Assembly (NCBI GenBank): GCA_017983845.1
Contig: JAGOAO010000003.1
Location: 95,719-159,718 of the forward strand
Length of the DNA: 64,000 nucleotides
Direction: 5' to 3'
DNA from: Sediminibacterium sp.
Lineage (GTDB): Bacteria > Bacteroidota > Bacteroidia > Chitinophagales > Chitinophagaceae
In this document: piece after piece, positions 58,327-64,000 of the stretch
How positions within the stretch are numbered: position 1 is the stretch's first letter
Layout: every line of letters starts with the position of its first letter
Translations under genes and position numbers: made by a program
The notes under the pieces: model-generated
Databases searched by the model: none
Told to the model about the DNA's origin: nothing
What the model saw: only the letters and a program-made list of their open reading frames with translations

Positions 58327-58563
58327 TTAGTGAATTTTGAATTCTTTCAATTCAGATTCATCTAATTTAAAAGTATAGTTCCCTTTTTTTAAATCGCCTA
58401 CATACAAACAGGTTCTTTGGGTAAAGCCGGTGATTTTTCCTTGTTGTAAAACATTCCCTTTGGAACAAATAATCTGGTAGATTTTATTGTCCGTCCCATG
58501 ACTAGAAAACTGGATTTCTAGAATACCGTCTTTGACGTTTTCAGTAATTGTAAACATGCTCAT
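58327..58563 (-). CDS. Tiny protein resembling a T9SS type A sorting domain
   Basis: 78 residues with no signal peptide and no other domain. The pattern LEIQFSSHGTDNKIYQIICSKGNVLQQGKI is cut short here; it continues to VGDLKKGNYTFKL. It follows the beta-sandwich layout of C-terminal sorting domains used by the type IX secretion system (I-x-x-G-K-V-x-x, then D-L-x-K-G-x-Y). In secreted proteins this domain is the tail of a large chain. Here it stands alone between two plus-strand genes. It could be a real small cytoplasmic protein or a remnant. Confidence 0.65.
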   Translation of the reverse strand: MSMFTITENVKDGILEIQFSSHGTDNKIYQIICSKGNVLQQGKITGFTQRTCLYVGDLKKGNYTFKLDESELKEFKIH

Positions 58564-58718
58564 TGTTGCCTTGGGGGGCGATTGTTTAATAAATTTAAGT
58601 AGTTTTTTTATATATCACAGCTAGATTTATCTGTTTACACAAGGCATTGCGTAGAATTAAATCGATTCCAACATTCTTTTGTGGAATCCTATTTAGCTTT
58701 ACAGCTTAAATTTGGACT

Positions 58719-60107
58719 ATGAAAAAGCATCTTTGGTTGGCCCTAATTTGTTTATTACCAATCATTTCTAAAGCACAATTTGTGTTGAAGGTAACGGGTA
58801 CAAATCTTCCTGATTCAGTTGCTTATTTACGCACGACTTTATTCGATGACAAAAATTTTATTCCTAAAGACACTATAATATTCTCAAAAGGGGGCAAAAC
58901 AATCATAAATACGAAATCAATAGTTGGGGGTATTTACTTTTTGTATTTTCCAAAAACGAAGCAAAAGATTCAATTTATTTTAGAAGACAAGGATACTGTT
59001 TCAATTGCATTATCAGGTAAGAATTATTTAGATCAAGTTAAAATAAATAAGACTAAAAACAATGTATTGCTCAATTACCAGCGTTTAGAGCAAGCCCTTT
59101 CTAATTATGATAGTAGTTATGCTGCCGAGTTAAAATCAGGCAAGAAATTTAGTCAAGTACAAAAAGCTGCTTATTTCAAAATCAAAACAGATTCTTTAAT
59201 TGCATTTAGAAAGTCCAAATTAAAGCTTTTCAAACCTTCAGATGCGATCTATATATACTTTAGCACAATGAATAAATTAGATGAAAATGTGCCTAATAAG
59301 AGAGACTATCAAGCAAGGGCTTCTTTTCTTAAAAAATTTGATTTAAACGAGCCTAAATTATTTTTCACTCCAGTGATGAGACAAATTGTGGTGGAGTATC
59401 TTTCCTTTTATCCATTACAAGGAGATACGCTTACAAAGGGTTTGGACGAAGTATTTAAAAATATGTTATGCACGAATAAAGCTTATTCCTTTGTCTTTGA
59501 TTACTTCACTAAAGTGTTTAAGAATAGGGAAGTGATGAATAACACAGCGGGATATGCTTATTTGATAGATAAATATGTAAAAAACAATACCTGTGCTTTT
59601 TTAGATAAGAACAATAAGCAGGCATTTTTGAATGAATTAACTCAATTACAAGCTCAACAGATCAATGCGCCAGTAATGAATGTTATTTTGGAGGATACTT
59701 TAGGTATTAAAAAGAATTTACTTGCATTTGCTAAAAACTATAACTATACCGTACTCGTTTTTTTTGATCCAAATTGTGAACATTGTAAAGTAGAAGTGCC
59801 AAAGATGGATAGCTTTATAGAAGCGCTTGAAAAAGAATTAATGGTGACGATTGGAAAATTTGCTGTTTGTAATGCATCTAATATTCCTAAGTCAGAGTGG
59901 AAAGCATTTATCAATCAGTATCATTTAAATAATCAGTACGAGCATGTATTAATCAATGAAGATATGGAACTAAGAAAAGCATTTGACGCCTTTAGTAACC
60001 CTTTATTCTTTTTGATTGATAAAGAAGGAACATTATTAGCCAAAAAGATCAGTCCAAATACTTTAAAGAGAGAACTTATTCAGTCCTTCAAAAATTTTAA
60101 AAGATAG
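58719..60107 (+). CDS. TlpA-like thioredoxin-domain protein, exported
   Basis: 462 residues with a signal peptide (MKKHLWLALICLLPIISKAQ). The N-terminal part is a beta domain of the DUF4369 type (LKVTGTNLPDSVAYLRTT). A helical middle region follows, then a C-terminal thioredoxin fold with the active site CEHC (Cys353 and Cys356) in FFDPNCEHCKVEVPKM, and a cis-proline segment SNPLFFLIDKEG. Bacteroidota encode many such proteins for periplasmic disulfide or cytochrome chemistry. The target is unknown. It precedes a two-component pair on the same strand. Confidence 0.88.
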   Translation: MKKHLWLALICLLPIISKAQFVLKVTGTNLPDSVAYLRTTLFDDKNFIPKDTIIFSKGGKTIINTKSIVGGIYFLYFPKTKQKIQFILEDKDTVSIALSGKNYLDQVKINKTKNNVLLNYQRLEQALSNYDSSYAAELKSGKKFSQVQKAAYFKIKTDSLIAFRKSKLKLFKPSDAIYIYFSTMNKLDENVPNKRDYQARASFLKKFDLNEPKLFFTPVMRQIVVEYLSFYPLQGDTLTKGLDEVFKNMLCTNKAYSFVFDYFTKVFKNREVMNNTAGYAYLIDKYVKNNTCAFLDKNNKQAFLNELTQLQAQQINAPVMNVILEDTLGIKKNLLAFAKNYNYTVLVFFDPNCEHCKVEVPKMDSFIEALEKELMVTIGKFAVCNASNIPKSEWKAFINQYHLNNQYEHVLINEDMELRKAFDAFSNPLFFLIDKEGTLLAKKISPNTLKRELIQSFKNFKR

Positions 60108-60218
60108 CAGTTTGATATAGAGTCATTTAAGACTTAGTTTCTAGAATTAAATCTACAAAACTCAATAATCATCCAATTCACAGAATCTAGAAGTACTTTT
60201 ACTGTATAATAAACAAGC

Positions 60219-60824
60219 ATGGAAACTAAAATATTGATAGCAGATGATCATAGCATCGTAAAGATGGGTTTAACTGCTATTTTAAATAGAATGGGTGTTC
60301 AAGATATAGAAACAGTTTCAACCATTGCAGAATTAGAAGTTGAAATTGCAAAAAATACCTTTACCCACTTAATTTTAGATATTATCCTTCCAGATGGCAA
60401 TAGTTTAGAATTGATAGAGTCTATCAATAACAAATTTCCACATTTATCTATTTTGGTACACTCCATGCAACCAATAGACGTGTATGGTAAAATTGCCAAT
60501 AAGTTTAACATTCATTCTTATTTGCACAAAGGAGCACTTGAATCTGAAATCAATTATCAATTAGAGCTATTTATTAAAAATAAATCACTTCAGATTAAAA
60601 AGAAGATGGAAGACTCTGTTAATCCATTTTCAACACTTGCTGTAAGGGAACTTGAAATTCTTCATTATTTGTTAAATGGACATAGAACAAAGGAAATAGC
60701 AGCTTCTTTGGGATTAAAAATGAACACTGTTTCTACGATTAAATCGAATATATTTGAAAAAGTAAAGGCGGAATCATTTACCCATTTGTTACAATTGGCA
60801 CATGTGCATCAAATCAGTTATTAG
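60219..60824 (+). CDS. NarL/FixJ-family response regulator
   Basis: 201 residues. The receiver domain has the acidic pair near ADDH (residues 8-11), the phosphoacceptor Asp54 in LILDIILPDG, and a lysine in LHKGALE. The C-terminal LuxR-type helix-turn-helix is LAVRELEILHYLLNGHRTKEIAASLG followed, after a break, by KMNTVSTIKSNIFEKVK. The sensor kinase gene overlaps its last 23 bases, so the two are almost certainly a cognate pair. Confidence 0.93.
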   Translation: METKILIADDHSIVKMGLTAILNRMGVQDIETVSTIAELEVEIAKNTFTHLILDIILPDGNSLELIESINNKFPHLSILVHSMQPIDVYGKIANKFNIHSYLHKGALESEINYQLELFIKNKSLQIKKKMEDSVNPFSTLAVRELEILHYLLNGHRTKEIAASLGLKMNTVSTIKSNIFEKVKAESFTHLLQLAHVHQISY

Positions 60825-63800
60825 GAACTTTTTTATAGTAATTATTAGTTTACTGGTCATTTTATGCCCGGCAAGATCGATTGCACAACAAAAATTTACA
60901 TTTGAACGACTCAATTCCGAGAATGGACTACCAGCTAATGGTATTAAGGGTTTGCAATTTGATGAGAAAAATAGATTTTTATGGATTGCTACTGAATCTG
61001 GCATTGTCAGGTACAATGGTCATAATGTTCAGACCTTTGGCGATATTTCAAATAATGAAAATTTAAACAGTAGAATTGTTTTCTTTGAAAATGGCGTAAA
61101 AGGTAAATTATTCGGCAAATTAATTGATGAATCTATTTTTACCATTCAAGACAATAAAGCAGTTTTTGAGAATGAAAAAATAAGAATAAATTCACAGAGA
61201 GATTATGTTGAATATAAATATGATTTACCCAAAACTAAATCTAAGGATTATATTAGCACTGTAGAGTATCGTTCATTTAAGATTGGGGCAAATATTTATT
61301 TTATTACGAATGATGATCGTACACAAAAATTACAAAAGATTAATGGGGATTTAAAGACCAATTTATATGAATTTAAAGATGGAGAACAAGGTTTTACTTT
61401 TGATGAGAGATTGTTTATAATCAATAATTTTGGTCTTGTTAATGAAGTAATTCAACTATCCAATGGATCTACAGAATTAAATTTTGTTGCAAAATTTGAC
61501 ATTCCTTATTTAAAAAATAAAATATATAATCAAAACTTAAGGGTATTTCAAGATCAACCAAACGACGATGTGTTTATTTTGAATGGAACAGTTTTGCAAA
61601 AGTTGATGTTACATAATAATCAACTTAAAATTGATGTAGTAACAAATGATATTCCAAAATTTGAGTTCATTAGGCAGTTGCAAATTGATAAAAAAACTGG
61701 AACGATTTATTTAGGTACAGATAATAGGGGTGTGATTATTGCCCATCCTCAATATTTTAAAAGAGTATTACCTAATGTATTTGTTGAGGGTATTAGTACA
61801 TCGGCTTATGCACAAGTGGAATTATCAAATGGAAATATTCAAATCAATTCTGGTCAAGTATTTGGTAATAGTATTATAAAAGTGCCATTGGTATTTCATA
61901 GGCCATCTGCCACTAGTACTTATATCTCCAGCGAAAATAAATTATACTATTCTAATTTTGACGGAATAACGGAATATGATTTAAACAACAATAAAAGAGT
62001 TCAAGCACCTAATCAAAGTTTTGTAAATAGTAATACCTTTATTGAAGTAGATGGAGTAATGTATGGTTTTTATGAACATGGAATCATCAAGAGAACTTCA
62101 AATGGTAAATGGACGGAGATTGCAAGGTTTAAAAATACACCCTATAATTTCATTATCTTCCAGTTACAATTATTAAAAGACAAATCGATACTTGCCGCCA
62201 CAACTGATGGTTTATATAAATATAGCATACCTAAAAACAAATTTGATTTAATTTATAGAGATAAATCAAATGCTAATTTTAGAAGTATCTTCCAGTTAGG
62301 TGATTACTATCTTTTGGGCACTTATGGTGGTGGGGTGTATATGTACAAATCGGACACCATAAAAAAAGTGCCTTTGGATCAAAATGGCTATTTGAAGTTT
62401 ACGCATTGTTTCATCAAAGATAATCAGAACAGAATTTGGGCTAGCACTAATAAAGGGTTATTTATGGCGCCTAGTCAATCATTGATTGATTTTTGGCATA
62501 TCGGACCAGGAAAAATTATTTATAAATATTATGGAAAACTGGAAGGCATAGACATGCTTGAAATGAATGGTGGATGTAGCCCTTGTGCTATAAAACTTAA
62601 GAATGGGGATTTTTCTTTTCCAGGCATTGATGGGTTAATTCAGTTCAATCCTAATAATTTGGTCGATTTAGATATCATACCTAAAGTGTATTTAGATAAG
62701 CTAGTGGTAGATAATAACATTATTGATAATAATGCATACAATAGTATCCCGTCAAAAGCATCTAGGCTATCAATGCATCTAGGTATTTCAGGTATGTTAT
62801 CTCAGGAAAATATCCGTCTAGAATATAAACTAGATGATAATGAAGTATGGAGCCCAATATTAATTAAAAATGCAATTCTCAGTATCGAAAAGCCAGGTTT
62901 TGGGAACCATAAGGTTGCCATAAGATCTAGAAGTACTTATAATCCAAAATGGGTGGAGCAGGTTTATACTTTTAATGTAAAATACCCTTGGTTTTTAAAT
63001 CCATGGATGTATCTTGTTTATTTAGCCCTTGGTGCATGTTTAGTATTATTGTACATTAGATTCAAGACTTTGATTTACCAACGTAGACAAGAAATTTTAG
63101 AATCCGAAGTGGCCTTTAAAACAGTTTCTTTAAATAAACTAAATAGTTACTTGCAAAAAAGAAATCAAGCAAAAGACCATGTGATAGCGATTATGAATCA
63201 TGATATTTTAACACCGTTAAAATATTTACACATTACTGCAAAAAATACCGCAAGCCAAATTACTGAAGAAAAAATTAAACATTCAATTAATCAAATTGCT
63301 GCTACATCAAAAGAATTAGAATATTTAACATCTAATATGTTGAACTGGGTGAAATTTGATAATATAGAAACATTGCCGAGTCCACAATTATTTGACTTGT
63401 ACAAATTGGTGCAAGATCTAGTTGAATTCGTAAGTCCATTTAAACAAAATGTAGATGTTAAAATTATAAATTCAGTTCCTGAGGATACTGAGATACTTTC
63501 TTGGCCGGATTCATTAAGAGTTTTGTTGTATAACATTATAATTAATGCAATTAAATCAACTTCAAAAGGTCAAATCCATATTCATTATAAAAAACATTAT
63601 ACCTATTTTGAAATTGCCGTTTCTGATACTGGTGAGGGTATGAGTGCTTCTATGATTCACTATTTAACAACTGGTCATAGTAAGGATGAAGTTGAGCTGC
63701 TTCCTAAGTATAAAAAAGGCAATGGTATAGGATACCAGATTATAAGGCATTTGATAAAATTAATGAGTATAGAAATGCAAATTAAGAGTAAAGAAAATGT

Positions 63801-63846
63801 AGGAACAATTGTTACACTTAAATTCTACAATAGTATAACTAAGTAG
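60802..63846 (+). CDS. Beta-propeller sensor histidine kinase
   Basis: 1014 residues. A signal peptide or anchor (FFIVIISLLVILCPARS) precedes a large periplasmic region of two-component-regulator propeller repeats (for example FLWIATESGIVRYNG, RIWASTNKGLFMAP) and a Y_Y_Y-type domain. A transmembrane helix lies near residue 735 (MYLVYLALGACLVLLYIRF). The cytoplasmic part has a HisKA-like helix with His800 in MNHDILTPLKYL and an ATPase domain with DTGEGM and GNGIGYQ. There is no receiver or DNA-binding domain at the end, unlike the one-chain hybrid systems of gut Bacteroides; the regulator is the overlapping NarL-type protein. Confidence 0.92.
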   Translation: MCIKSVIRNFFIVIISLLVILCPARSIAQQKFTFERLNSENGLPANGIKGLQFDEKNRFLWIATESGIVRYNGHNVQTFGDISNNENLNSRIVFFENGVKGKLFGKLIDESIFTIQDNKAVFENEKIRINSQRDYVEYKYDLPKTKSKDYISTVEYRSFKIGANIYFITNDDRTQKLQKINGDLKTNLYEFKDGEQGFTFDERLFIINNFGLVNEVIQLSNGSTELNFVAKFDIPYLKNKIYNQNLRVFQDQPNDDVFILNGTVLQKLMLHNNQLKIDVVTNDIPKFEFIRQLQIDKKTGTIYLGTDNRGVIIAHPQYFKRVLPNVFVEGISTSAYAQVELSNGNIQINSGQVFGNSIIKVPLVFHRPSATSTYISSENKLYYSNFDGITEYDLNNNKRVQAPNQSFVNSNTFIEVDGVMYGFYEHGIIKRTSNGKWTEIARFKNTPYNFIIFQLQLLKDKSILAATTDGLYKYSIPKNKFDLIYRDKSNANFRSIFQLGDYYLLGTYGGGVYMYKSDTIKKVPLDQNGYLKFTHCFIKDNQNRIWASTNKGLFMAPSQSLIDFWHIGPGKIIYKYYGKLEGIDMLEMNGGCSPCAIKLKNGDFSFPGIDGLIQFNPNNLVDLDIIPKVYLDKLVVDNNIIDNNAYNSIPSKASRLSMHLGISGMLSQENIRLEYKLDDNEVWSPILIKNAILSIEKPGFGNHKVAIRSRSTYNPKWVEQVYTFNVKYPWFLNPWMYLVYLALGACLVLLYIRFKTLIYQRRQEILESEVAFKTVSLNKLNSYLQKRNQAKDHVIAIMNHDILTPLKYLHITAKNTASQITEEKIKHSINQIAATSKELEYLTSNMLNWVKFDNIETLPSPQLFDLYKLVQDLVEFVSPFKQNVDVKIINSVPEDTEILSWPDSLRVLLYNIIINAIKSTSKGQIHIHYKKHYTYFEIAVSDTGEGMSASMIHYLTTGHSKDEVELLPKYKKGNGIGYQIIRHLIKLMSIEMQIKSKENVGTIVTLKFYNSITK

Positions 63847-63854
63847 ATATTATT

Positions 63855-64000
63855 CTATATCTTTTCACTTTTGTTAATTTCAGTACATTTTTTGTTTATA
63901 ATATTCTTATAAATACCACTATTCATAGAAGTAATTCTAAGTGCAACACGGGCAATATTTGGGACTTTTGTACGTTTCAAAAAATCCCGTTTAGATGATA
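63855..64000 (-). CDS. Possible C-terminal end of a leftward gene (partial, unrecognised)
   Basis: On the minus strand a frame is open from the window edge to a TAG at 63857-63855 and would encode about 48 residues, including KRDFLKRTKVPNIARVALRI (the first 20 of a longer stretch) and then a lysine- and asparagine-rich tail. It converges with the sensor kinase gene, as a true gene would. I recognise no family, and 48 codons can stay open by chance. Confidence 0.25.
   Translation of the reverse strand, partial: SSKRDFLKRTKVPNIARVALRITSMNSGIYKNIINKKCTEINKSEKI

Follow-up and report, generated by a model that had tools for sequence, protein, structure and literature searches.

Sorting domains are C-terminal export tags that are recognised in the periplasm and the outer membrane. 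We analysed a small gene, here called MINI, whose entire product resembles such a tag. It lies in a stretch of 64,000 nt (hereafter the window) on contig C34 of a Sediminibacterium sp. genome of 2.03 Mb and 97.6% completeness; the named relatives of this genome are Sediminibacterium and other Chitinophagaceae or Bacteroidota MAGs. The closest described counterpart is the type A sorting domain of the type IX secretion system (T9SS; PF18962 Por_Secre_tail, TIGR04183), with which MINI shares a seven-strand Ig-like sandwich, a loop glycine, a GxY motif and its size. In contrast to a type A domain, MINI is a whole protein rather than a tail, lacks a signal peptide and stays below the Pfam and NCBIfam cut-offs. 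It also differs from several sorting domains of the same genome in that its orthologues mostly lack a C-terminal lysine and the PNP start is missing. A second counterpart is DUF3244 (PF11589; solved structures 4g5a, 3sd2 and 3d33), which has the same fold (Z 9.8-10.4) and a weak sequence match. DUF3244 proteins are exported, whereas MINI remains below the cut-off of that family and is probably not exported.

Sorting domains have already been connected to regulation. The account of P. gingivalis PorA in PMC7712824 describes a sorting-domain protein that acts on PorXY-SigP signalling, upstream of the two-component system. MINI is comparable in that its predicted fold is that of a sorting domain and its gene is associated with a two-component system, again in the context of a T9SS. 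However, PorA as described there has 246 aa, a signal sequence, an extra domain and a position at the cell surface, and the regulators next to MINI (a propeller kinase and a NarL-type regulator) are of another type than its PorXY-SigP. For type B cargo, PMC9143113 reports an anchoring layout of SprB/SprF type with PorP-like and PorE-like partners. A giant gene near MINI, together with its PorP/SprF and PorE-like genes, shares this layout, and the locus goes beyond it by adding a two-component system that appears to be box-regulated and the stand-alone MINI. Among the papers listed by our literature searches, none was seen to report a stand-alone sorting-domain protein without a signal peptide. 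With moderate confidence, we propose that MINI is a cytosolic binding or regulatory protein of the sorting-domain fold that is co-induced with a T9SS adhesin.

The small gene and its predicted fold

The preliminary description had placed a 78-residue open reading frame at 58327-58563. Its location, minus strand and 78 codons from an ATG stand (Table 1), but the product is probably shorter. The first ATG (58563) occurs in no orthologue other than those of the window and of its near-identical relative; because the second ATG (58557) alone is common to the aligned orthologues, the true start is probably 58557 and the product likely has 76 aa. The orthologues comprise 20 distinct sequences of 76-77 aa, all with the conserved TQR and R48-x-C50. 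MINI is a stand-alone frame in all orthologues examined, with in-frame stops 1-26 codons upstream of their starts. Pairwise dN/dS was mostly 0.04-0.45 among 14 orthologue genes (two of them identical), considering pairs with unsaturated synonymous changes. These comparisons indicate that MINI is a real protein-coding gene under purifying selection and of constant length within the Sediminibacterium-like clade.

Table 1. Features of the window around the small gene.
Feature	Position	Strand	Remarks
MINI, stand-alone protein of predicted sorting-domain fold	58327..58563	-	seven predicted beta strands, no signal peptide
Promoter-like element TAAATTTA	58590..58597	-	33-40 nt before the probable ATG of MINI; position conserved in most orthologues
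Degenerate proximal box AACAGATAAATCTA	58622..58635	-	38 nt upstream of the -7-like element
Distal box TCGATTTAATTCTA	58652..58665	-	one arm mismatch; in the intergenic region between MINI and the divergent thioredoxin-like gene
TlpA-like exported protein	58719..60107	+	weak AhpC-TSA/DUF4369 matches
Box TAGAATTAAATCTA	60142..60155	+	upstream of the response-regulator gene
NarL/LuxR-type response regulator	60219..60824	+	Response_reg and GerE
Sensor histidine kinase, propeller-type sensor	60802..63846	+	Reg_prop, weak HisKA (E 0.0066), HATPase_c; start overlaps the regulator gene
Box TAGATATTATTCTA	63844..63857	+	upstream of the giant gene
Box TAGAAGTAATTCTA	63926..63939	+	69 nt before the giant gene
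Giant 8431-aa exported protein, start	63995..64000	+	begins six bases before the window end and runs out of it

The AlphaFold2 model of MINI (pLDDT 90.7) contains seven strands and, as compared by Foldseek and VIA-align, forms the Ig-like beta sandwich typical of type A sorting domains. The three best Foldseek matches were DUF3244 4g5a (E 9.3e-4), the NucA sorting domain 8glk_D (1.2e-3) and DUF3244 3sd2. VIA-align placed 8glk_D first (Z 10.6, rmsd 1.9, 71 aligned residues), and its first seven ranks were all sorting domains (among them mirolase CTD, Z 10.4; PorZ, 9.1; RemA CTD, 9.0) or DUF3244 structures (4g5a, 10.4; 3sd2, 10.2; 3d33, 9.8). The best entry outside these two groups reached Z 8.9, and RemZ ranked tenth with Z 8.5. 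The predicted fold of MINI is thus that of a T9SS sorting domain, as the preliminary description had supposed from the sequence, and it matches DUF3244 just as well by both methods. Since DUF3244 equals the sorting domains as a fold match, the fold by itself does not imply any link to secretion.

Sequence profiles gave a weaker signal. Pfam matches to the window protein were sub-threshold both for PF18962 (15.7 bits against a cut-off of 27, E=0.019) and for DUF3244 (16.8 bits against 25, E=0.0069), and NCBIfam returned no match. Among 14 family members, nine matched PF18962 at E<=1 (best 0.00088) and eight matched DUF3244 at the same threshold. When hhalign was run against five sorting domains encoded in the same genome, the match was weak (E 0.067, versus 0.22 for the reversed control), and the family profile found nothing at E<=1 among the sequences of solved structures. 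Searched against 394 Chitinophagaceae genomes, this profile matched 48 at E<=0.01. Among the matches listed with their loci, the match ended at most 14 residues from the stop codon in 25 of 27 non-orthologue loci, mostly in long proteins, and the two exceptions (L044 and L049) are stand-alone relatives themselves. The profile thus selects the C-termini of T9SS cargo, where sorting domains sit.

This likeness to cargo C-termini is what one would expect if MINI were a fragment left by the decay of a T9SS cargo gene, but the constant length, the low dN/dS and the conserved start codon and promoter contradict such an origin, which we consider extremely improbable. The earlier suggestion of a remnant of a larger gene is accordingly rejected on the conserved length, purifying selection and conserved promoter of its own, and the same observations exclude a pseudogene. 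We also discarded the possibility that MINI is the split tail of the neighbouring giant protein, which carries a type B sorting domain of its own. MINI is most probably neither cargo nor remnant.

A different reading is that MINI is a generic Ig-like cytosolic protein of DUF3244 type, similar to sorting domains by common fold ancestry and functioning outside the T9SS. We regard this as possible, if rather doubtful. It would account for the equal fold match, for the better Pfam match of the window protein to DUF3244 than to PF18962 and for signal-less relatives in other genera that share no common neighbourhood. Against this reading, the MINI profile finds cargo C-termini, and in its own clade MINI adjoins a T9SS adhesin locus with which its box indicates co-regulation.

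The signal-less relatives form a second family of stand-alone proteins (A2), represented by 32 matches (E<=3.3e-14) in 27 of the 394 Chitinophagaceae genomes. Its open frames encode 95-152 aa, and the short frame was recovered in 23 of 24 fetched loci, across which no common neighbour gene was found. These loci (L058, L059, L063, L064 and L191-L210) come from many Chitinophagaceae genera, and the proteins have a short extra C-terminal stretch; four members tested showed no Pfam family above the cut-off. Small relatives that do bear a signal peptide also exist (L061, L062, L065-L067). One genome encodes three of these in tandem, with the same domain at the C-terminus (L061, 4180-5247, minus strand). 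Divergent MINI paralogues were further observed directly 3' of, and on the same strand as, genes for PATR, DUF5907 repeat proteins (L060, 2205-2465; L068, 7095-7349); both repeat proteins end without an obvious sorting domain.

Export signals

Type A sorting domains form the C-terminal part of a larger cargo that carries a Sec signal peptide; MINI has neither cargo nor signal peptide, as first described. Its orthologues (n=20) reach a peak N-terminal hydropathy of 0.5-1.9, versus 2.5-3.6 in five proteins that bear signal peptides. An upstream start that would supply a signal peptide was considered and dismissed: the frames upstream contain stops or lack a hydrophobic stretch, and the promoter-like element is too close to the ATG. 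The C-terminus also departs from that of sorting domains. A lysine or arginine is found within the last four residues of two of the 20 orthologues, as compared to six of seven sorting domains of the same genome (G000; these are the PF18962 matches excluding the window gene, four of them above the cut-off and one being the PorU tail). For P. gingivalis, PMC11285876 presents two elements as important for secretion, the beta3-beta4 loop and a C-terminal motif (C-t.) that contains a conserved lysine. MINI keeps the glycine of this loop (G34, next to predicted strand 4 and present in at least 90% of 14 sequences) and does not keep the C-terminal lysine motif. These features suggest that MINI is not a working export tag and that it is cytosolic.

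Could MINI instead serve as a decoy, or stand in for a sorting signal, using some unrecognised route to leave the cell or to act in the envelope? The fold, the loop glycine and the co-regulation with T9SS cargo would fit, and there is a precedent in the 112-aa sorting-domain protein Fjoh_0547, which is secreted without SprA according to PMC7712824. Yet none of the 20 orthologues has signal-peptide-like hydropathy, the promoter lies too near the start for a signal peptide, and terminal lysine or arginine is rare compared to the genomic sorting domains, which together make this route highly unlikely. The decoy role named in the preliminary description cannot be separated from other binding roles, but the lost lysine motif speaks against MINI being a faithful copy of the signal. 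The secretion machinery itself is in place: PorU and PorV, which that description had proposed to look for, are both encoded in the window genome, as is SprA. PorU was matched in 95 of 101 genomes of the genus, so its presence does not discriminate.

Gene neighbourhood and a putative operator

MINI is transcribed divergently from genes for a TlpA-like protein, a NarL-type response regulator and a propeller-type kinase. The latter two have the domains of a two-component system, namely a receiver and a DNA-binding domain in the regulator and HATPase with a weak HisKA in the kinase. The giant gene that follows extends, in the fetched loci, from L115 1214 to L148 7009. Its product is repeat-rich (12% Asp, 12% Thr) and carries a T9SS type B sorting domain at its C-terminus (CHU_C, E=4e-18; TIGR04131, E=9.9e-10). 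A PorP/SprF gene and then a PorE-like/OmpA gene lie 3' of it, so that the type B C-terminus and the downstream PorP/SprF of a type B cargo locus are both present. From these features the giant protein is probably a type B T9SS adhesin. In one genome (G512, contigs C13 and C87; L163, L165) the response regulator is present twice, with 84% and 78% identity to that of the window.

A 14-bp palindrome, TAGA-N6-TCTA, was found upstream of MINI, of the regulator/kinase operon and of the giant adhesin gene. Within 260 bp upstream, the box is present for 18 of 20 regulator genes, 15 of 18 small genes that are accompanied by the regulator and all 12 giant genes examined, with about 0.2 expected per set from shuffles; these counts come from related genomes and some intergenic regions belong to several sets, so they are not independent. 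When spacers of 0-9 were tested, only a spacer of 6 gave matches (76 vs 0). Of 18 regulator promoters, 15 have a distance of exactly 52 nt between box and promoter. For MINI, the proximal box stands 37-38 nt from the promoter-like element in seven relatives with intact boxes, in agreement with the window. The element TAAATTTA resembles the Bacteroidota -7 type element, TAnnTTTG. A distal box with one mismatch is found in three small genes, including that of the window. We consider the constant spacing amid diverged sequence to be a stronger sign than the box counts, and the response regulator presumably binds the box.

The box TAGAATTAAATCTA implies probable autoregulation of the response regulator. 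The TlpA-like gene is also a probable member of the regulon because homologues at other loci (elsewhere in G451 and G033, and one in G476) own a box upstream. Within the window, a scan for TAGAT-N3-AAATCTA with two mismatches yielded no more matches than chance. Genome-wide, TAGANNTNANTCTA occurred 8 times vs 5 for the reversed control in G000, 9 vs 12 in G033 and 13 vs 3 in G029. Because it is not enriched in every genome, the regulon appears to be mainly local. TAGA-N6-TCTA boxes were also seen upstream of genes in three genomes (L132, L140 and L127); judging from their N-terminal sequences, we assume that these genes encode TonB-dependent receptors.

Co-occurrence, persistence and proposed role

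The MINI family was detected by profile search in 22 of the 101 genus genomes and the regulator (E<=1e-60) in 20. Both are present in 19, the regulator alone in one (G497) and MINI alone in three (G001, G013 and G427), a co-occurrence with a Fisher p of 2e-16 when kinship among genomes is ignored. In 18 of the 19 genomes, a single contig carries both genes, separated by no more than 3.03 kb; in the other (G476), contigs break between regulator and kinase and MINI adjoins the kinase. MINI is divergent and upstream of the regulator in 13 of the 19; in the remaining six it lies beyond the kinase gene, in convergent orientation.

Such adjacency despite the change of side, and a box common to both genes, would fit a feedback partner, i.e., MINI binding the response regulator or the cytosolic part of the kinase and thereby tuning its own regulon. 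We judge this unlikely, as MINI is also retained where the regulator is lacking. In G001, the region with the TlpA-like, regulator, kinase, giant, SprF and OmpA genes is missing between MINI and a 135-aa gene (L162 compared with L148), so that MINI has been kept despite the loss of regulator, kinase and adhesin locus. No regulator match was found in G013 at 1e-60 or in the genomes of L016 and L017 at 1e-20. Of five regulator-less loci, one (L073) has a box-like site, at -181. The dN/dS between two regulator-less MINI genes from separate lineages (L004 and L017) is 0.156. MINI is therefore not an obligate part of the regulator/adhesin system, since it is kept in G001, G013 and the genome of L017, and its role appears to outlive the adhesin locus. 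Because MINI is kept under constraint without regulator or adhesin while the T9SS is retained, its partner is more likely a constant component of the cell or of the T9SS than kinase, regulator or adhesin on their own.

The reading that we favour, a cytosolic protein co-induced with the adhesin, can be put as a sequence of steps. MINI would consist of one T9SS-sorting-domain fold which, having neither cargo nor signal peptide, stays in the cytosol. The response regulator would bind the box and induce MINI, the regulator/kinase operon and the giant adhesin locus together. With less certainty, MINI may then use its invariant strand and loop (TQRTCLYVGDLKKG) to bind a partner and, as an intracellular adaptor or regulator, might adjust secretion or envelope physiology while the adhesin is produced. 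An adaptor or regulator had been among the roles first envisaged for the protein; it fits the co-regulation and the adjacency to a two-component system and a giant adhesin, and is not proven by them.

A conserved cytosolic protein made of the sorting-domain fold alone, and apparently co-induced with a giant adhesin, suggests that an export tag has been reused inside the cell. MINI thus offers a concrete handle on the control of adhesin secretion in Bacteroidota, and TAGA-N6-TCTA is a testable candidate operator for an uncharacterised two-component system. More speculatively, and with rather low confidence, stand-alone, signal-less proteins of this fold may constitute a class of intracellular regulators in Chitinophagaceae. 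In them, the fold of an export tag would have been turned into a cytosolic sensor or antagonist linking adhesin induction with T9SS activity; the gene of the window would then be the member wired into an adhesin regulon.
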